49,533 bases of DNA, taken from positions 1 through 49,533 of the forward strand of contig JAFTRX010000115.1 of assembly GCA_017462015.1 (NCBI GenBank). Reading direction: 5' to 3'. This DNA is from Lentisphaeria bacterium. GTDB lineage: Bacteria; Verrucomicrobiota; Lentisphaeria; Victivallales; Victivallaceae. A model generated the notes under the pieces. The model saw only the letters and a list, made by a program, of their open reading frames with translations. It was not told the DNA's origin and ran no database searches. Position numbers and translations under genes: made by a program. Positions 17,188 to 49,533 of this stretch are shown piece after piece. How positions within the stretch are numbered: position 1 is the first letter of the stretch; each line of letters opens with the position of its first letter.

Positions 17188-19344
17188 TTATTTTGCTTTG
17201 CGTTTCAATTTTACGATTTCTCTTGCTATTTGATCGCGGAATTTCTGCATCGCTTTATTGCTGTTGACTTTGAATCCGATGCCGCCATTTTTGGTCAATA
17301 CCGGCATCATATTTCTGATCTCTGCCGGCAGCTCTTTACCTTTGGAAAGTTGACGGTATATCGTCAGATAGTCATAATCATCAAGTCCGTCGCGGGCGAG
17401 TTCCATCCTGAGTGATGCCATCGTTTCCCCCGGCTTTTTCCCGGGATAAAACCAACTGTGATTAACCCATTTGTTATAAGGAATATCCTGGCGCTTCATT
17501 CCGGCATAGTCGTTGTAAACGTTGATTTCGGAGTAGAGATAACCGTTGATGTTGTATTTGTGCGCCAGCCAGTAATAGAGCCGGGGAATGGCGGCAGATG
17601 TGCGGAATGAACTCATTCCGGTATTATTGTAGGTCCACACTTTTTTGCTGTTGCCTTCGGGGTTCAGCCGCAGCTGGGCGGCAACATTGAATTTTCCCAG
17701 CCAGATGTCGATATCGTCTTCAAGTTCCGGGGCAATATGGTCGATAAAAACCCCCGCCTGCAAATCGGGAACATACTTGCGTGCGCTTGCGATACCGCGT
17801 TTTATTGCCGGATAAACACTGCGGTACGGCTCGTCCCAGAAAATGAACAACGTTTTGTCCAAGATTCCCAGTTTCCGGTAGTGGTCATGAACTTTCTTCA
17901 CCATCATTCCGAATCTGGGTTCGAAATCCGGCGTACCGAACTTCATGTTTCCGGTGATGCGGGTATTGAATTTGTCATGGGAACCCATTTGGAAAAATGA
18001 ATCCTGAAAACAGGTGAACTTGTGCTTGTTGAAATACATATCCGCTGCGGCATCAAATTTTCGCCAGTCGATGACCGGTTCATTTCCTTGCCACCGGACC
18101 GGGCGCGGCGCGTTGAGCAGGCGCGGACTGAAACGATATTCCCGCGCGATTTTCTGCTGCATGGCATATTCCGTCCGCATCCCGGCAGCAGAAATTTGGG
18201 TAAAGTGTTTTTTGATATGCCCCGGCTTGATGCAGTAGGCGGTGGAAAAAAACGGCTGTTCCGGCAGGTCGAAATCGTAAACTTCAAACTCCAGCGGAAC
18301 TGGAGAGAGTTCTTTTCCGTCAAGTTTTATTCCGGCGGTGCCTTTGTAGATACCGGCGGGGATGTTGCGCGGAGTGTTCACCCGCAGGGCGACAAAGCTG
18401 TTGTGCGAGTTGCTTTTTACAAAGACCGGGTAGAGTATATCGGTAAAGTACTCCTCTCTCAATGTTCCGGTAAAACCGATGTACCGGACAAACATATTCG
18501 TCGCCGGGATTTTGTCTCCTTTGTCATTGACCAGATCGGATGGGATGATTTCGAGTTGCTGAGCCGGTTTTTCTGTGGTCAACGCAAAGAAAAATACTTC
18601 ACTTTCGCCCCGTGCCGCAGATGTTTTCAGCGCGTTTGCTGTTTCAGACGGTTGCGGCATGGCTTCCGACTCTTCGTAACGTTCTCCGAAGGTGTTCCAC
18701 ACTTTCACCCCGTCACTGCGCGGTATCAGCACCGCTTCCGCTTTTTTCCTGTGCATATTGTTTTCCCGTTCAAAGCGGAAAAATTTGAACACCGGCTGGA
18801 ACGTACCGTAACTCTTTCTCACATCGAGCTGCCGCGAAATATCGCCCATCGGCGTTTTTACCGCTGATGCAAGACAGCGGAAGACAAATTTATCCGTGAA
18901 CACCATGCTTTTTACCGCCGCTTTCCGCAGGGCGATGTACATCACATCGCCGGCAGTTTCCACCAGATAATCGTCCACATACAGCGGCATGAACTCCGGT
19001 TTGTTCCCCGGCAGCCACCGGATGACACTGATGGAGCTGCGCTTGATGTTGATCTGGAAATCCCAGCCGCTTTTTCCGGCGAACCGGCCGGTTTTTTTGT
19101 CATTATCGGAGTTGAAGTACAATCCCGCGCCGAAGTTCTGTTTTTTCCGCGCTGCATCCAGACCCGATATTTGTACTGCCCAAACATACTTGTCGTCATC
19201 CTGATACATGCCGAGTCCGACGATGCGGTGTTTGTCTGCGGGGATATTTTTCGCCCGGTACAATACCGGTACTGCTATATCAGCTGCGGATGTGTGCCAT
19301 GCCAGCTGGCACAGCAGGAAAATTGAAAGTGCTGTTCTGTACAT
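17188..19344 (-). CDS. Secreted DUF4091/GH123-like protein
   Basis: The 718-aa protein has a signal peptide (MYRTALSIFLLCQLAWHTSA). The N-terminal ~170 residues look like a CBM9-type sugar-binding beta-sandwich (GLYFNSDNDKKTG, WDFQINIKRSS). The middle and C-terminal parts resemble the DUF4091/GH123 barrel, with FIFWDEPYRS at about residue 508 and the C-terminal ELARDGLDDYDYLTIYRQL pattern typical of that group. Characterised GH123 members are beta-N-acetylgalactosaminidases, but specificity here is unknown. It lies 10 bp after the pseudopilin gene and 18 bp before the GH39-like gene, so the three are almost certainly co-transcribed. Confidence 0.75.
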   Translation of the reverse strand: MYRTALSIFLLCQLAWHTSAADIAVPVLYRAKNIPADKHRIVGLGMYQDDDKYVWAVQISGLDAARKKQNFGAGLYFNSDNDKKTGRFAGKSGWDFQINIKRSSISVIRWLPGNKPEFMPLYVDDYLVETAGDVMYIALRKAAVKSMVFTDKFVFRCLASAVKTPMGDISRQLDVRKSYGTFQPVFKFFRFERENNMHRKKAEAVLIPRSDGVKVWNTFGERYEESEAMPQPSETANALKTSAARGESEVFFFALTTEKPAQQLEIIPSDLVNDKGDKIPATNMFVRYIGFTGTLREEYFTDILYPVFVKSNSHNSFVALRVNTPRNIPAGIYKGTAGIKLDGKELSPVPLEFEVYDFDLPEQPFFSTAYCIKPGHIKKHFTQISAAGMRTEYAMQQKIAREYRFSPRLLNAPRPVRWQGNEPVIDWRKFDAAADMYFNKHKFTCFQDSFFQMGSHDKFNTRITGNMKFGTPDFEPRFGMMVKKVHDHYRKLGILDKTLFIFWDEPYRSVYPAIKRGIASARKYVPDLQAGVFIDHIAPELEDDIDIWLGKFNVAAQLRLNPEGNSKKVWTYNNTGMSSFRTSAAIPRLYYWLAHKYNINGYLYSEINVYNDYAGMKRQDIPYNKWVNHSWFYPGKKPGETMASLRMELARDGLDDYDYLTIYRQLSKGKELPAEIRNMMPVLTKNGGIGFKVNSNKAMQKFRDQIAREIVKLKRKAK

Positions 19345-19353
19345 TGCTTTTGC

Positions 19354-20322
19354 CTATCTTTTCGTTGCCCAATATTTTTTCATCTCAGCGGAATTTCTTT
19401 CGCCGTAAGTCCGCGATATGACCTCTCTGGTATTGACGGCACGTCCGTCCCAACTGGTGTAGTTGATCGAATCGGAAGCGGTTTTGATGTCCGATGTCGC
19501 CTGCCGCTTGCCGTGGCGGTAACGCAGTTTCCTCTCTTTGGCACTGTTGCTGTATGTCATATCGTAACTGCTTACACGCCAATGGTTGGCATCTGCCCAT
19601 AAAACCAGTTGCGGATTGGTTATCTGCGAGGCTTTCAAACCGGCTTTCAATTCGAAGTGCGCTCCGTAGCTGCCCCATAACTGCGGTGTGTTACTGTCGG
19701 ACGGACAATGAAACACAGGAGTGTTTTTTGCATAGTTGCTGTTGTCATATACCAGACCCATGTGTTTGATAACTTTTTTGTGTGAAGTATCATTCGCATT
19801 TAGGTAGTAAGGATAATATCCGTCGTAAGAATCAGTGTAGGAAACTGTTGCATGATTTATCTGCTTCAAGTTGTTGAGACAGGAAGCAGTCCGCCCCCGC
19901 GCCCGCGCACTCTGTAACGCCGGTAAAAGCAACGCCGCCAGTATAGCAATTATTGCGATGACAACCAGCAGTTCAATCAGCGTGAACGCTGATTGAATGA
20001 AGCGCACCCTTGGTGCATGAAGCATTTTCCTGCGGAAAATATGAAGCACGCCTCCGGCGTATGAAGCGCGCCCTTGCGGGCGTAAGGTTATGATAAATTG
20101 ATTTATTTTTTTAAGAAAATATAACAATAAAACCCTGACTTGCCCCGGCAGTTCTATCAAAGTGAAAGGCTTTGTGGAAGAGTGGAAAAACTTCTTTTCC
20201 CGGGAAAAGCCGAACGTCGGCACCGAAGTATCTCTTTCCCCTGCGCCCCCTTTCTCTTTACAAAAAAGCGGGGTATTTTGCTGCTCCTGGACTTTACGGC
20301 GATGCTCTGACGACTTTCTCAT
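19354..20322 (-). CDS. Pseudopilin-like protein with a repeat-derived double leader
   Basis: The 322-aa protein carries a type IV pilin-like signal, [21 protein letters not shown], beginning at about residue 111, followed by the [14 protein letters not shown] helix and a periplasmic or surface domain. An earlier broken signal, [10 protein letters not shown], lies at about residue 52. Residues before it come from the dispersed leader-hairpin repeat, and residues 82-112 from an array of five hairpins (19972-20083). The whole is one open frame with AGGGAG 8 bases before its ATG. The C-terminal H-X9-DG motif is replaced by RYRHGKRQ and a longer insert before SWDG. It sits inside a glycan-degradation operon. 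Prepilin peptidase would cleave before F of one of the two FTLIE sites. Confidence 0.85.
19972..20083. repeat. Array of five different hairpins joined by the linker ATGAAGC
   Basis: Plus-strand order: hairpin 19972-19997 (12-bp perfect stem), linker, GCACC-ctt-GGTGC (20004-20016), linker, ATTTTCC-tgc-GGAAAAT (20024-20040), linker, ACGCC-tcc-GGCGT (20048-20060), linker, CGCCC-ttgc-GGGCG (20069-20082). The linker ATGAAGC is identical at 19997, 20017, 20041 and 20061. The stems share no sequence. One arm of the first hairpin is the codons for TLIE of the pilin signal. It lies within the pseudopilin gene and keeps the frame open. Confidence 0.9.
20168..20290 (-). repeat. Leader-hairpin repeat, copy 2 (coding)
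   Basis: On the minus strand this encodes [19 protein letters not shown] and SREKKFF of the pseudopilin leader, in the same frame as in the two other pseudopilins at 46 and 47 kb. It carries the CGGTGCCGACGTTCGGC insert also found in the non-coding copy at 6485-6607. The central stem is CTTTTCCC/GGGAAAAG. Confidence 0.8.
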
Positions 20323-20344: not shown

Positions 20345-21562
20345 TTACAGTGAAATCTTCATAAATGTTTCCCGGTCAGCTGATTCCCGGGCGCACAGAC
20401 AAACCAGTGTACTTAATATCCCCTGCCCGGTGATAAGGTCAGTCGAACTGCGTTCACCGGTTTTCATCGTGTGCAGAAAGTTCTTCACCAACGCCCGGTC
20501 TCCGCCGTAGTGGCTGAGTTTTCCGGGGTCAACGGTGTAATTTTCCACCTCAGTGTTTATGGACGAATAGAATGTGAGTTTCCCATGGTTGAAGTCCATT
20601 TCCAGAGAACCGAATTCACCGACCAGTCTTCCGCCACGGCGGGAGGCGGCACGGGAAGCTATAAAATTCTGGGTGTGTACCAGATGCGCTCCGTTTTTAC
20701 CCTTGATGATGCACTCCCCGATATCTTCGATAGCAATCTCGCGGGAGATGGCACAGAACCGCTTGCGTAAAAATGTTCCGTCCGGAGCATAGATCCCGGA
20801 ATGAAATTTTTCTGCTTCGGCAAAGGAGTTGAACAATCCCTTGCGGTCAAAATAAAATTCCGGACCGTGGATGCAGGTATGCTTATCCGGGCATACGTCA
20901 CAGCTCAAATCGTAATCTTTATCTCCTGTATGCCACACTTTAGCCCGCATGGCACAGACGCTTTCCGGTTCGATGCCGCTTAAATAGAGCAGATAATCAA
21001 TATCGTGTACCGCCTTCTGCATAAACATGCCGCCGGTTTTTTCCGCATCCCGGAACCAGGTCGTGAAATAGATGTTGCCGTCAGTATCTTCAAATCCGGT
21101 GACTTGGAATATCCTTCCGAGCTTTCCGGAATCAATGATCTGTTTGGCCCTGACCGCCAGCGGAGCAAGACGCATCGGAAGAGATACCTGCACCGGGGTC
21201 GGAGAGTTGCGGAAACAGGAGTCGAGAGCTTGGATCTGTTCCAGAGAAACTGCCACCGGTTTTTCCAGGTAAAGCGGGATGTGGAGCTGTTCCAATTTAC
21301 AGGCGATCTCCGTGTGAGAGGTGCAGTAAGTGCCGATGATGATGCCATCCAGAGGCAATCCGGCAGAGATAAAGGAGTCGATGTCCGCAAAGAAACAGCA
21401 GTTGTCACTGACATTGACCTTCTTTTCCAGCAGCCGGGCTCTGGCTCCGGATTCGTTTATATCCATCACAGCGGCAACTTCATATTTGTCACCGAACAGA
21501 TCAAGATAACCGGCAATGGTTGCAGCCTGCAAGCCGCAGCCGACGACTCCTATTTTCAGCAT
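20345..21562 (-). CDS. Gfo/Idh/MocA-family oxidoreductase
   Basis: The 405-aa protein has an N-terminal Rossmann fold ([18 protein letters not shown]) and the family's [10 protein letters not shown] motif at about residue 94, which holds the catalytic lysine, followed by the alpha/beta substrate domain ([13 protein letters not shown], with the conserved His, at about 182). Members oxidise or reduce sugars, inositols or derivatives with NAD(P). An unusual Cys-rich stretch, [10 protein letters not shown], occurs at about residue 221. It is the first gene of the minus-strand glycan operon and lies head to head with an AraC-type regulator, so it likely processes the monosaccharide released by the downstream hydrolases. 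Confidence 0.9.
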
Positions 21563-45578: not shown

Positions 45579-45862
45579 AGTTGTCCTTTTTTTTCTAACA
45601 GCTGTCCCATAAGAAACGACCTGCGGCGGCGCCTCGTGGGCAATCTTACGGGCAAATCGGCGGACGCCCACTCAGTCATGGACAGTAGTCCACTCCTTCG
45701 TTGTCGCCTTGATTTACCCGCAACCTTGCCGCACGATCCATCCGCCGATTGCAAACGACTGTTTTTATTCTTGACATTTAAGTAATATAAATACAATTTT
45801 CTTTCAGAGAATATTCAGTTTCACAAAATTTGGGACAATTGTTCATCATAGTTGTCCTTTTT
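45567..45862. repeat. Structured repeat element flanked by 25-bp direct repeats
   Basis: Forward-orientation element of about 246 bp. A 25-bp sequence (starting ATTGTTCATCATAG and ending TCCTTTTT) occurs at 45567-45591 and again at 45838-45862. The left end has CTGTCCCATAAGAAACGACC, the right end TTTCACAAAATTTGGGACA followed at once by the second direct repeat. The core hairpin is GGAC-agta-GTCC (45680-45691). The duplicated bases hold the ribosome-binding site and start codon of the phosphatase gene, so the insertion left it intact. Confidence 0.82.
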
Positions 45863-45933: not shown

Positions 45934-46060
45934 ATCCGGTCGCGGAGAAAATGGATGAATCAGGTGAGAATCCTGAGCTGTTGCGCAACTGTGTGGCTTT
46001 GAGCCGAGTCAGATCTCCACCGCGGCAAGTTGAGTAAAATCAACTGTAAATGCGCATAAC
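45934..46060 (+). ncRNA. Cobalamin riboswitch (short, AdoCbl-variant/Cbl-II-like)
   Basis: The core reads GGTGAGAATCC (about 45963-45973), then GAGCTGTTGCGCAACTGTG (about 45975-45993), a short GGCTTTGAGCC arm, and GAGTCAGATCTCC, closed by CGCGG near both ends. This order matches the B12 riboswitch core (GGTG..AA.CC, GCTG..CGCAACTGT, AGTCAGA..CC); the short arm suggests the compact class. TGCGCA in the P5 loop (45982-45987) recurs at 46051-46056, ten bases upstream of the AAAGGAG site, so a kissing interaction could control translation of the first gene. Confidence 0.85.
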
Positions 46061-46078
46061 ATGAAAGGAGCAAAAACA

Positions 46079-47053
46079 ATGCATTTTTACAACGGAAAAC
46101 CGCCGGTTTCCATCTTGTTGAAGATGGAAAAGAAGAGACACACTACTCCAGTCAAAAGCTGCGACAAACTGGAGCAGCAAAATACTCCGCTTTTCTTGAA
46201 AAGGGGAGAGGGTTTGGGAGAGGGGAAAAACCTCTTTTCCCGTGAAAAGAAGTTTTTCCCCTCTCCCATAAAGCCCTTCACCTTGATAGAATTGCTGGTT
46301 GTTATCGCGATTATTGCGATATTGGCGGCGATTTTGCTGCCCGCTCTGCAGGGTGCGCGGGAAAGGGGGCGCAGTTCCGGGTGCAGCAATTCCATCCGGC
46401 AAATCGGCAGTGCCAATATGCTCTACGCTGATGCTAACAGAGACTATTTTGTATACAGTGCCATTTGGAGCACATACCCTTATAAATACTGGTGCGGTGA
46501 ACCCGAATCCGGTTGGGGCAATGTCAAACCGCGCGGCGGGTTGAATGATTATCTGGGAAATTCGGGAAACGTAAGAAATTGTCCGACAATGGTAAATCTG
46601 GTCAGTAATGACTATACCAACAGTGGTACCGGCGGATATGGTTATTCCGTGGGAATCGGCACTTACACTACTGCAAACGGTTATGATCCGGTACCGGCGA
46701 AGCAGAGCATTTTGAGTCATCCCTCAAGGACGATCATGTTCGCCGATCATATCAGCGTGGATAACGGTCAGTACAACGAACAAATCGACCTTTATGCGCC
46801 GATATACATGGACAAAGATAACGATACCGGATGGGGAGAAGCTGCGCCGACGATGCATTTCCGTCATCGCAATAAGGTGAATATTTTCTGGTCTGACGGT
46901 CATGTCGATGCCAATGGACCATTGAGTTACTCGCAAAGCGGCTGGGGATGTTCGGCAAAAGAACTTGCCGCAAATTTCAAAATCGGCTGGTTTGGCGGTG
47001 ATGACAGCGAAGAGATCGCAGAACTTTTCAAAGTAAGGAAGACAAAAAAATGA
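46079..47053 (+). CDS. H-X9-DG pseudopilin under cobalamin riboswitch
   Basis: The 324-aa protein has the pilin-like signal [21 protein letters not shown] at about residue 67 and [14 protein letters not shown] after it. The C-terminal [13 protein letters not shown] fits the H-x9-DG motif of this pseudopilin class exactly. The first ~66 residues form an unusually long leader, about half of it encoded by the leader-hairpin repeat. I chose the ATG at 46079, 8 bases after AAAGGAG; an earlier in-frame ATG at 46061 overlaps that site. The residue before the expected cleavage point is Pro, not Gly. It is the first gene of the B12-controlled operon and overlaps the next gene by four bases. Confidence 0.88.
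46159..46272 (+). repeat. Leader-hairpin repeat, copy 4 (coding)
   Basis: This encodes [18 protein letters not shown], then [12 protein letters not shown] of the pseudopilin leader. Its arms GGGAGAGGGGAAAAAC and GTTTTTCCCCTCTCCC pair perfectly, with TCTTTTC/GAAAAGA inside. Relative to the copy at 47489-47604 the arms differ in sequence but keep pairing. Confidence 0.85.
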
Positions 47054-47292
47054 AATTTTTTGCGATATTTTCCGGAATATTTTTATTGCTGCTGACCGGC
47101 TGTGAAGAAAAAACTGCAGCAGTTTGCAAAGAGAGTGAAAAAATTGAAATTCCGGCAACGCTGCGTTGTCCGAGGTGCTTCAAACAATCCCCGGCAGAAA
47201 CAGTACAGCGGGTAAATCAGCAGATGTCACTTTGTCCGGCGTGTAAAAAAGTTTCACCAGCGATGAAATTTTATCCGCGTAAACGTAAATAA
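47050..47292 (+). CDS. Small lipoprotein with zinc-ribbon motif
   Basis: The 80-aa protein has a lipoprotein signal ([18 protein letters not shown], lipobox LTGC) and two CxxC pairs, CPRCF at about residue 39 and CPACKK at about 57, so the mature protein may hold one metal ion at the membrane surface. The C-terminus is basic (YPRKRK). It overlaps the pseudopilin by ATGA and precedes the next pseudopilin by 14 bases. The family is not recognised; its place in a cobalamin-controlled operon suggests a role in the same uptake or assembly process. Confidence 0.85.
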
Positions 47293-47306
47293 AATCAAGG
47301 AACAGT

Positions 47307-48377
47307 ATGAGCAGACCGTTGAAAACTTTGTCGAATTTTGCGACAAACTGGAGCAAAACTACCCCGCTTTTTTTGAAAGAGAAAGGGGGCGCGGGGGAAA
47401 GGGAAAACTTTTTTTCCCGTGAAAAAAAGTTTCCTTTGCTTGAACAACCGGCAAATACAGCTGTCTCATCACAGCGTTTTTCTCAAAGCTGCGACAAACT
47501 GGAGCAGCCAAATACTTCGCTTTTTTTGAAAGAGAAAGGGGGTGCGGGGGAAAGAGGAAACTTTTTTTCCCGTGAAAAAAAGTTTCCCTTGTCCCCCGCA
47601 CACACCCATTTCACTTTAATAGAATTGCTGGTGGTGATTGCAATTATAGCAATACTGGCGGCGATTTTGCTGCCGGCGCTGCAGAGTGCGCGGGAGAGGG
47701 GGCGCGGGGCGAATTGTTTATCCAACATCAAGCAGATAACGCTGGCAAATTTGATGTATGAATCCAACAATTCCGGGTATTTCATTTACAGTGCCATTTG
47801 GGAAGCGCCGTACCGGTACTGGTGCGGAGTACCGGACGCGGGGATAAGCGATGTTAAAAGCCGGGGCGGACTGGGTGAATATATGGGAAATAGTTCGGGG
47901 ATAAGTTATTGTCCGTCGGTGCAATTTGAGTACAGTTCCGGAACCAACAGCGGCACGGGGGGATATGGTTATTCCGTGGGCATTGGAACGTATGATTATC
48001 AGGGGATGAATCCGGTACCGGCGAAGTCATCGCTGTTGCAGCAGCCGGGGAAAACGGTGATGTTTGCCGATCATGCCAGTGTCAACAGCAAAGGGCAGTT
48101 CAATGAGCAGATCGATTTATATGCACCGGGGATGATGACGCGGGATGAAGTGGTATATCCCGGTGCCGCGCCGACGATGCATTTCCGGCACCGGAAGCAG
48201 GTCAATGTCGGATGGGCGGATGGGCATGTGGAAAGTTGCGCGCCGTTGAGTTACCGTCAGGGCGGGTGGGGACATACGGAGGGAGTGTTGGCGAACAATT
48301 ACAATATCGGCTGGTTCGGCGGCAGTGATGCAGAAACGGTGAACGACTTGTTCCGATGCCGGAAAAAGAGGAGATGA
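47307..48377 (+). CDS. H-X9-DG pseudopilin with tandem leader repeats
   Basis: The 356-aa protein has the signal [21 protein letters not shown] at about residue 102, [14 protein letters not shown], and [13 protein letters not shown] (H-x9-DG) near the C-terminus. The mature domain is clearly homologous to that of the preceding pseudopilin (shared [20 protein letters not shown]). Its leader of ~100 residues is made of two tandem copies of the hairpin repeat, each encoding [11 protein letters not shown] and [13 protein letters not shown] lies 5 bases before the ATG. His precedes the predicted cleavage site. It is the third gene of the B12-controlled operon. Confidence 0.88.
47338..47604 (+). 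repeat. Leader-hairpin repeat, tandem copies 5a and 5b (coding)
   Basis: Copy 5a is at about 47338-47432 and copy 5b at about 47489-47604, in the same reading frame. In 5b the arms GTGCGGGGGA and TCCCCCGCAC, then GGAAACTTTTTTTC and GAAAAAAAGTTTCC, form a nearly unbroken stem of over 25 bp. In 5a only the inner stem pairs. Confidence 0.85.
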
Positions 48378-48382
48378 TGGCG

Positions 48383-49189
48383 GTGAAAAAGTTATTGTTC
48401 ATATTATGTATTGCAACATCTATTGCAATATGTGCAAAAGAGGTGAAGGTGGTATCGCTGTCGCCGGGAGTGACGGATGCGATTTGCGCCATTGGCGGAG
48501 TTGAGTATCTTTGCGGCAGGAGTTCGGCATGTAATGCGCCGGAAGCGGCAAAAGTGCCGGTTGCGGGAAAAATGGGACTTCCGGCAATGGAGAAAATCAT
48601 TCAGCTCCGGCCGACACATATTATAAGCGATACCAAACATCCCGGCGGCAACTGGAAGATGCTGGAAACGCTGGGGATAAAGGTAGTGATATTGCCCGGA
48701 AAGAGGGTGAATGATTACGCAGAAAATTTGCGCAAACTGGGAAAAATATTAAAACTGGAAGCGGCGGCGGAAGTTGCCGTAAAAAAGTTTGAAAATGAAA
48801 TAAGCGCGTTGAAGAGCAAAGCACCGGCAAAAGCGGTGAAAGTTTTGATCGTGCTGGGCGTGCCCGGAGTTATAAGTTGCGGCAGAACGAGTTTTATCCA
48901 TGAAGCAGTTACACTTGCCGGAGGGGAAAATATCTGCGGAACAATGGAAAAAGGGTACTTTACCGTATCGGCAGAGTACATACTCAAAGCTGAGCCGGAA
49001 GTGATAATCTGCGCCGGATTGGCGGCGGAAGTTGTGAAAAAGCACTTTTTCCGGAGGGAGTACCGTAATCTGCCGGCGGTGAAACATGGCAGGTTTATCG
49101 AAGTTGATGCGGATAATTTTTGCCGCATCGGAAGCCGGCTGCCCGGTGCGATAGCCGCCTTGAATAAGATTTTGTCTGCTATTCGATAG
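48383..49189 (+). CDS. BtuF-like periplasmic cobalamin/metal-chelate binding protein
   Basis: The 268-aa protein has a signal peptide (MKKLLFILCIATSIAIC) and is a class III ABC-transporter substrate-binding protein: VVSLSPGVTDAICAIGG at the N-terminus, RPTHIISDT, LGIKVVILPG, GGENICG and NLPAVKHGRFIEVDAD. I chose the GTG at 48383, 9 bases after AGAGGAG; two ATGs 6-9 bases earlier lie too close to that site. The control by a B12 riboswitch favours cobalamin (BtuF role) over haem or siderophore. No BtuC, BtuD or TonB-dependent receptor gene is in the window, so its partners are elsewhere. Confidence 0.85.
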   Translation: MKKLLFILCIATSIAICAKEVKVVSLSPGVTDAICAIGGVEYLCGRSSACNAPEAAKVPVAGKMGLPAMEKIIQLRPTHIISDTKHPGGNWKMLETLGIKVVILPGKRVNDYAENLRKLGKILKLEAAAEVAVKKFENEISALKSKAPAKAVKVLIVLGVPGVISCGRTSFIHEAVTLAGGENICGTMEKGYFTVSAEYILKAEPEVIICAGLAAEVVKKHFFRREYRNLPAVKHGRFIEVDADNFCRIGSRLPGAIAALNKILSAIR

Positions 49190-49190
49190 G

Positions 49191-49533
49191 CGACCTGCGG
49201 CGGCGCCTCGCGGGTAATCTCGGGAGCAAATCGGCGGACGCCCACTCAGTCATGGACCGTAGTCCACTCCTTCGTTGTCGCCTTGATTTACCCCCAACCT
49301 TACCGCGCGATGCATCCGCCGGGCGGAGCAGAATTGTTTTGCACGCTCTGCGGCGGCGCCTCGCGGGTAATCTTGGGAGCAAATCGGCGGACGCCCACTC
49401 AGTCATGGACACAGAGTCCACTCCTTCGTTGTCGCCTTGATTTACCCCCAACCTTACCGCGCGATGCATCCGCCGGGCGGAGCAGAATTGTTTTGCACGC
49501 TCTGCGGCGGCGCCTCGCGGGTAATCTTGGGAG
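49191..49533. repeat. Tandem array of the structured repeat core (about 154-bp unit)
   Basis: The unit begins CTGCGGCGGCGCCTCGCGGG at 49195, 49348 and 49502, giving spacings of 153 and 154 bp; the third unit runs off the window. Units have core hairpins GGAC-cgta-GTCC (49254-49265) and GGAC-acaga-GTCC (49407-49419). TGTCCC-type termini are not seen between units. It follows the BtuF-like gene directly. Confidence 0.88.

Follow-up and report, generated by a model that had tools for sequence, protein, structure and literature searches.

How do large and scarce nutrients, such as vitamin B12, cross the outer membrane of diderm bacteria that lack TonB receptors? This question was raised by a locus near the end of a 49,533-nucleotide stretch of Lentisphaeria bacterium DNA (assembly GCA_017462015.1, contig JAFTRX010000115.1, family Victivallaceae; the whole stretch is referred to here as the window), in which a cobalamin riboswitch precedes genes for a pseudopilin, a small lipoprotein, a second pseudopilin and a BtuF-like periplasmic binding protein. 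A preliminary description had read these four packed genes as a B12-regulated corrinoid-acquisition operon to which the pseudopilins belong. The open reading frames and the profile matches confirmed the genes and their order, and the proposed reading gained strong support from the conserved linkage of riboswitch and pilin, the largely separate subfamily that these pilins form and the near absence of TonB receptors. We consider it very probable that the pseudopilins are regulated by B12 and are members of the corrinoid-acquisition regulon. Survey genomes, fetched loci and contigs are labelled G, L and C, respectively, G000 being the window's own genome.

The riboswitch was searched for with Rfam and with a lineage model. 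No Rfam family reached its gathering score in a scan of the whole window; the best match in the region was the cobalamin riboswitch family RF00174 (E-value 3e-5 in 341 nucleotides), below its gathering score of 31.5 bits, and the Rfam support that had been anticipated failed at this strict cut-off, though not by its E-value nor by the lineage model described below. The element was the only RF00174 match with an E-value of 0.001 or lower in the genome (29.0 bits), and the gathering score was exceeded in 16 of the 78 genomes of the GTDB family. A search of these 78 genomes provided 66 RF00174 places (window included), of which 49 had the core pattern (17 did not) and 44 of the 49 a recognized L13 loop. 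The lineage model, R1, was built from 36 aligned short-spacer relatives, selected without regard to the downstream genes and with the window and the long-spacer elements left out, although its training set contains two close relatives of the window (G050 and G033). The match to the window element was not due to chance, since R1, built without the window, scored it at 95.6 bits (E-value 9.4e-20). R1 matched the genome once; a second match in the window (21401-21513, minus strand, 19.1 bits, E-value 0.0076) read as coding sequence without the core motif and was taken as chance.

Covariation and loop pairing showed the B12 riboswitch of the preliminary description to be real, in agreement with the R1 score. 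In the alignment of the 36 relatives both sides had changed in 15 of 23 pairs, a count reached by 13 of 500 shuffles, and the other four covariation measures were reached by none of the 500; 96.1% of the cells were paired, against 22-52% when slid. The L5 and L13 loops, which form a kissing-loop pseudoknot, both read UGCGCA in the window but CGCGCA and UGCGCG in most relatives, a compensatory change (C-G to U-A). All six L5-L13 pairs, G-U allowed, were present in 39 of the 44 elements with a recognized L13 (window included); because the L13 pattern served in the element search, evidence of pairing comes from its free positions alone. The closing pair of P13 was G-C, G-U or A-U among the relatives. 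The L13 hairpin immediately precedes AAAGGAG, which is followed by the ATG at 46079, a position that fits a translational mode of control.

The linkage of riboswitch and pilin was conserved far beyond the window, so that the lack of conserved linkage which the preliminary description had named as a refutation did not occur. R1 found 103 places in 72 of the 78 family genomes, representing all 19 genera, and matched 125 of the 137 genomes of the order. After six places near contig ends were left out, the first gene behind the riboswitch could be assessed at 97 family places: it was a prepilin in 67, BtuF in 10, BtuC in 2 and another gene in 18, the prepilin-first arrangement occurring in 61 of the 72 riboswitch-bearing genomes. 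The 18 other genes included a CobD/CobQ fusion, scanned in L319 and read at three further places, as well as genes identified from reading alone as CbiK-like, NrdD-like, MarC-type and POMP-like, among more. An open reading frame with a prepilin motif was found within 1.5 kb downstream of 64 of 91 family riboswitches and upstream of 0 of 94, and chance adjacency was ruled out by the survey together with this upstream control. Sequence of 1.2 kb or more was available for 63 pilin-first operons; BtuF was recognized behind the pilin in 37 of these, 23 of them also with BtuC.

Pilins were likewise found behind riboswitches in other families of the order, for which 23 loci were picked among the matches listed, to spread over the families and not at random, and one of them, with 491 nucleotides downstream, was dropped. 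In 16 of the remaining 22 a pilin was either the first gene (14 loci) or the second (2 loci), in five families (f3, f4, f5, f7 and f8); the other six loci had a CobD-like gene (1), NrdD-like genes (2), POMP-like genes (2) or BtuFCD (1). In three genomes with no R1 match (G045, G048 and G055), riboswitches above the RF00174 cut-off preceded such pilins at 5 of 5 loci. The association was also seen from the protein side: an open reading frame with a prepilin motif lay directly upstream of 46 of 106 family Peripla_BP_2 matches (4 of 110 matches, not fetched, were left out), 34 of these prepilins having the H-X9-DG element, and such linked prepilins were present in 41 of 71 genomes. Conversely, when 78 loci were retrieved because they resembled pilin 2, R1 matched three of them (L031, L033 and L034), and each of the three had both pilin and lipoprotein genes.

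Some pilins belonged to the regulon without being linked to the transporter in an operon. In G004 (C37), G064 (C48) and G065 (C172) a pilin was under its own riboswitch, with no BtuF recognized in 6 kb, and a second riboswitch of the same genome preceded BtuFCD (G004) or BtuC-BtuD (G064 and G065); in G136 the pilin and BtuFCD diverged from two back-to-back riboswitches. These cases bear on the simplest objection, that the pilin is a passenger with no B12 role, one of many H-X9-DG pilin genes that chance, or a spread driven by repeats, has put after the riboswitch. The genome does contain 70 prepilin motifs, and there are repeats in the pilin leaders. The survey nevertheless already contradicts this explanation, since about 3 pilin-first places among the 97 would be expected if 3% of genes are assumed to be pilins, the pilins are largely of one subfamily across six families, and pilins occur alone under a switch of their own; we regard a passenger as extremely improbable.

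Both pilins of the operon matched the prepilin motif model TIGR02532 (22.0 and 21.9 bits, cut-off 16.3). The H-X9-DG-CTERM model TIGR04294 gave 15.8 and 16.6 bits, below its cut-off of 19, with the literal H-X9-DG present, and PF07963 gave 20.1 bits on pilin 1, just under its cut-off. The closest named relative of pilin 2 was from Lentisphaeria bacterium RGIG5537 of sheep colon (84% identity in the best segment). A tree (FastTree) was calculated from 93 B12-linked and 67 other pilins, each with 150-420 residues counted from the motif and with one near-copy removed. Most of the other pilins were from loci retrieved for their resemblance to pilin 2, and they are not a random sample. All but one of the 93 B12-linked pilins fell inside a 108-row branch with support 80 and, within it, a 105-row branch with support 91, and the labels changed 14 times along the tree, against 51.5 for shuffled labels (0 of 500 shuffles as low). 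At least 8 of the 13 other pilins in the 105-row branch were from BtuF loci (L225, L227, L238, L239, L243, L265 twice and L279). The B12-linked pilins are a largely separate subfamily across six families. They favoured GGYGY, F155, HFRH at 194-197 and G237 (HFRH in 73 of 93, versus 11 of 67 others), and C36, C102, H197, D207 and G208 were common to both groups.

The TonB receptors that pilins might stand in for were nearly absent from the order. The TonB-receptor plug PF07715 gave no match in the window's genome, the Escherichia coli, Caulobacter and Bacteroides controls being positive, and matches were found in 2 of the 78 family genomes (1 above the cut-off) and 3 of the 137 order genomes (2 above). 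This agrees with the absence of ExbB from two deep-sea Lentisphaerae genomes, as stated in a paper on these strains (PMC11361711). Outside the order the picture was different. In a sample of 29 high-scoring RF00174 places of the phylum, one per genome, no prepilin open reading frame lay within 1.5 kb on either side; four of these places were inside the order, and among the 25 outside it no pilin followed the riboswitch, whereas a TonB receptor was the first gene in 9, all nine confirmed by the Pfam Plug domain. Because TonB plugs are rare in the order and TonB receptors stand behind 9 of the 25 switches sampled outside it, the place of BtuB in the regulon appears to have been taken by the pilin.

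The last gene of the operon encodes a protein that matched Peripla_BP_2 well above the cut-off of 27.5 bits, and this was the only such match in the genome. A single FecCD permease match, with an ABC ATPase gene beside it, was located on contig C91, unlinked to btuF, and the genome encodes one protein with a B12-binding domain, which is MetH-like. The genome thus has a protein that would use B12 and, in other respects, an importer of the usual kind. The ligand of the binding protein could in principle be heme or another tetrapyrrole, with the riboswitch reporting corrinoid as a mere proxy: the protein was equally near to heme binders, and in G077 a HutW-like radical SAM gene lay between the pilin and the binding protein (at L151, 6798-8093 on the minus strand, between the riboswitch-controlled pilin and BtuFCD; 352 bits, cut-off 400). 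Against this stand the cobalamin type of the switch and the R1 switches found before the CobD/CobQ fusion and, by reading, before CbiK-like and NrdD-like genes, and tetrapyrrole import seems to us quite improbable.

The following explanation of the operon would account best for these results. When B12 is scarce, the riboswitch, working on translation through the kissing loop before the ribosome site, would turn on a corrinoid-scavenging operon. The two H-X9-DG pseudopilins would be substrate-dedicated subunits at the outer envelope, which may use machinery of the type II secretion or type IV pilus type and secretins (8 matches in the genome, 7 above the cut-off) for the capture of corrinoids and their delivery to BtuF, and would thereby do the job of BtuB-TonB in other diderms. 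The zinc-ribbon lipoprotein may be an accessory at the same place, and BtuF would hand the corrinoid to the unlinked permease/ATPase pair on C91. On these genomic patterns, the chances that the pilin subfamily carries out corrinoid uptake at the outer envelope, by direct capture or by passage, appear to us evenly balanced, binding and transport being the conjectural parts.

Several results weigh against this explanation. For the riboswitch, it is the one covariation count that was matched by 13 of the 500 shuffles. For the pilins, the supports of the subfamily branch were below 95 and long branches were present, one B12-linked pilin (G039) fell outside, and no corrinoid site was identified, as other pilins of the lineage likewise have H-X9-DG, C36 and C102. 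The binding protein scored 89.1 bits with the IsdE model and 83.1 with the BtuF model, both far below the cut-offs, and 53 bits with the heme-binding 2r7a and 48 with BtuF in the PDB. BtuF was not recognized in 26 of the 63 pilin-first operons, and G063 has a TonB plug yet also carries the pilins. Furthermore, a published study predicts that Victivallis vadensis makes all vitamins but B5 (PMC6593275), so scavenging would not be needed by all relatives. Finally, where pseudopilins were induced by a substrate in a related member of the phylum, the authors interpret them beside a type II secretion system that may export enzymes (PMC13274419).

This last point leads to the possibility that the pseudopilins are export helpers, added by B12-limited cells to a type II secretion machine, and that an exported lipoprotein or POMP-type protein, not the pilin, captures B12 at the surface. 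It draws on the secretins of the genome, on the interpretation of that published case, on the position of the lipoprotein gene, which separates the two pilin genes both in the window and in four or more relatives, and on POMP-like large proteins encoded first under the switch in G030, G043, G056 and G060 of the family and in G108 and G128. The lipoprotein was searched with a hidden Markov model built from 7 sequences, the window's included. It was found at 11 distinct loci (the window, L031/L132, L033/L170, L034/L153, L114, L122, L148, L042/L265, L113, L115 and L316), all of them, among the loci examined, with a B12-type pilin; a weak match at L232 (E-value 0.01) was disregarded. The exact order pilin-lipoprotein-pilin-BtuF recurred at L031, L033, L042/L265 and L148, and L042/L265 had no riboswitch within the reach of the contig, its pilins being neighbours of BtuF that fell in the B12 branch. 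The operon can thus lack the lipoprotein, which is optional. With the lipoprotein at only 11 distinct loci and POMP-like proteins first at 4 of the 97 family riboswitches, the pilin is the constant part, and we judge export help unlikely, though deserving consideration.

The POMP-like large beta-helix proteins were recognized by reading as first genes under R1 switches at L323, L324, L325, L169, L342 and L346 (G060, G056, G043, G030, G128 and G108, in the same order), the POMP repeats having been scanned in L325 and L346. They may be surface B12-binding proteins or adhesins.

Pilins of the lineage were also associated with other genes. Among the 77 pilins without HFRH, 63 had a gene of at least 180 amino acids within 220 nucleotides downstream; in 20 of these neighbours, chosen to spread and not at random, a Pfam match at 1e-6 was obtained in 14, mostly for glycan degradation: DUF4838 (five), GH20, GH43 (twice), GH123, trehalase, BNR/sortilin, CBM4_9 (twice), beta-helix and rhamnose isomerase. 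A second type of importer, with the order pilin-binding protein-radical SAM-FecCD and no riboswitch match, was read at four loci (L253, L254, L267 and L274). One pilin per substrate would be the simplest summary. It is a tentative proposal, somewhat short of even chances in our opinion, that pseudopilins have replaced TonB receptors as substrate-dedicated uptake components of the outer envelope in this nearly TonB-less order, gut Lentisphaeria included; the B12 pilins would be the clearest case, because there an RNA switch names the substrate, and the second importer and the pilin-glycosidase pairs would be others.

The neighbours of the other pilins are relevant to a further explanation, in which B12 shortage would lead to pili attaching the cells to corrinoid-producing partners or particles, with uptake by BtuFCD and entry through general porins. 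Pili are classical adhesins, and a pilin can stand alone under its own riboswitch. The 37 operons with BtuF behind the pilin argue against adhesion, glycan-degrading genes behind other pilins are a better fit to substrate handling, and general porins are considered to let B12 through too slowly. Adhesion is in our estimation improbable.

Candidate loci for the second importer, all without an R1 match, were L250, L253, L254, L256, L267, L271, L274, L276 and L281. The FecCD permease started about 0.7-0.75 kb behind the binding protein, and at the four loci read the radical SAM gene lay in between. The pilins of L250, L254 and L256, together with those of L263 and L281, formed a clade apart from the B12 pilins. 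In the window itself, an H-X9-DG pilin gene (19354-20322) was located directly before a GH123-type glycosidase gene (17191-20322 for the pair, minus strand).

The features of the locus are collected in Table 1. The open reading frame of pilin 1 extends over 46061-47053, and its probable start, behind AAAGGAG, was chosen by reading the sequence. Of the intergenic distances given in the preliminary description (-4, 14 and 5), the overlap of 4 between the pilin 1 and lipoprotein frames and the gap of 14 before pilin 2 were borne out, but that of 5 before btuF requires the GTG at 48383; a start at either of the ATGs, 48374 or 48377, would overlap the pilin 2 stop, and the longest frame begins at 48356. 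The upstream neighbour of the operon encodes a low-molecular-weight phosphatase on the minus strand, and the contig runs into repeats shortly after btuF. By reading, related repeats at 45590-45740 and 49190-49533 flank the operon region and fill the end of the contig.

Table 1. Positions of the riboswitch elements, genes and leader repeats of the operon in the window.
Feature	Position	Strand	Basis
Cobalamin riboswitch aptamer and regulatory hairpin	45934..46065	+	Lineage model R1 95.6 bits; RF00174 27.2 bits
L5 loop UGCGCA of kissing-loop pseudoknot	45982..45987	+	6/6 complementary to 46051-46056
P13/L13 hairpin (AUGCGCAUAACAU)	46050..46062	+	Immediately 5' of ribosome-binding site AAAGGAG
Pseudopilin 1	46079..47053	+	FTLIELLVV motif from 46277; H-X9-DG type with HFRH
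Small lipoprotein, two CxxC pairs (zinc-ribbon type)	47050..47292	+	Sequence
Pseudopilin 2	47307..48377	+	FTLIELLVV motif from 47610; mature part 59% identical to that of pilin 1
Palindromic repeat, two copies read through as long prepilin leader (pilin 2)	47360..47600	+	Exact pattern at 47411 and 47564
BtuF-like periplasmic binding protein	48377..49189	+	Start 48374, 48377 or 48383; PF01497 110.8 bits

A third copy of the palindromic repeat was found in pilin 1 (about 46190-46270, with 2 mismatches at 46234), and the pattern had 10 matches on both strands, versus 0.29 expected. The repeat was present in the leaders of 76 of 92 pilins (window and L031-L108), a share biased by the fetching query, which itself held the repeat. 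Leader repeats were read in the window and in L031, L035, L045, L101 and L102, and in several of the leaders shown the FTLIELLV motif flanked the repeat on both sides, as if an element had been inserted in the motif codons.

We know of no role for the tens of pseudopilins encoded per genome. Here the riboswitch connects a pilin subfamily with one nutrient that can be named, and the function of the subfamily is therefore directly testable in a cultured relative. Riboswitch-controlled pilins as a route of vitamin uptake were absent among the matches listed in a search of the open-licence PMC literature; if the proposed function is true, this route would be new to the literature searched, would offer an idea for the function of many other pilins, and would bear on the competition of some gut bacteria for corrinoids.

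Compared with known systems, the riboswitch shares with RF00174 the core motif, the covarying stems and the L5-L13 kissing loop, but is under the Rfam gathering score. The pilins resemble the H-X9-DG (DUF1559-type) pseudopilins of planctomycete-verrucomicrobial bacteria in the FTLIELLVV motif, C36, C102 and H-X9-DG, and differ in forming a mostly separate branch, favouring HFRH and GGYGY, under a B12 switch. The SusC/SusD systems of Bacteroidota follow a logic of one receptor per substrate; the lineage's pilins are similar in directly preceding other genes, mostly for glycan degradation where matched (14 of 20), with pilins in place of TonB receptors and a likeness of function that is putative. 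In Verruconatronum alginivorum, growth on one substrate reportedly raised 17 gene products, a pseudopilin with 67 homologues in the genome being one of them (PMC13274419). In this the two cases are alike; V. alginivorum differs in that it has TonB systems, its substrate is alginate, and its authors suggest export by type II secretion. With the E. coli type of import by BtuB-TonB and BtuFCD, finally, the window's genome shares the cobalamin riboswitch, the Peripla_BP_2 binding protein and the FecCD permease with its ATPase, but no TonB plug was found in it, and the first gene behind the switch encodes a pseudopilin.

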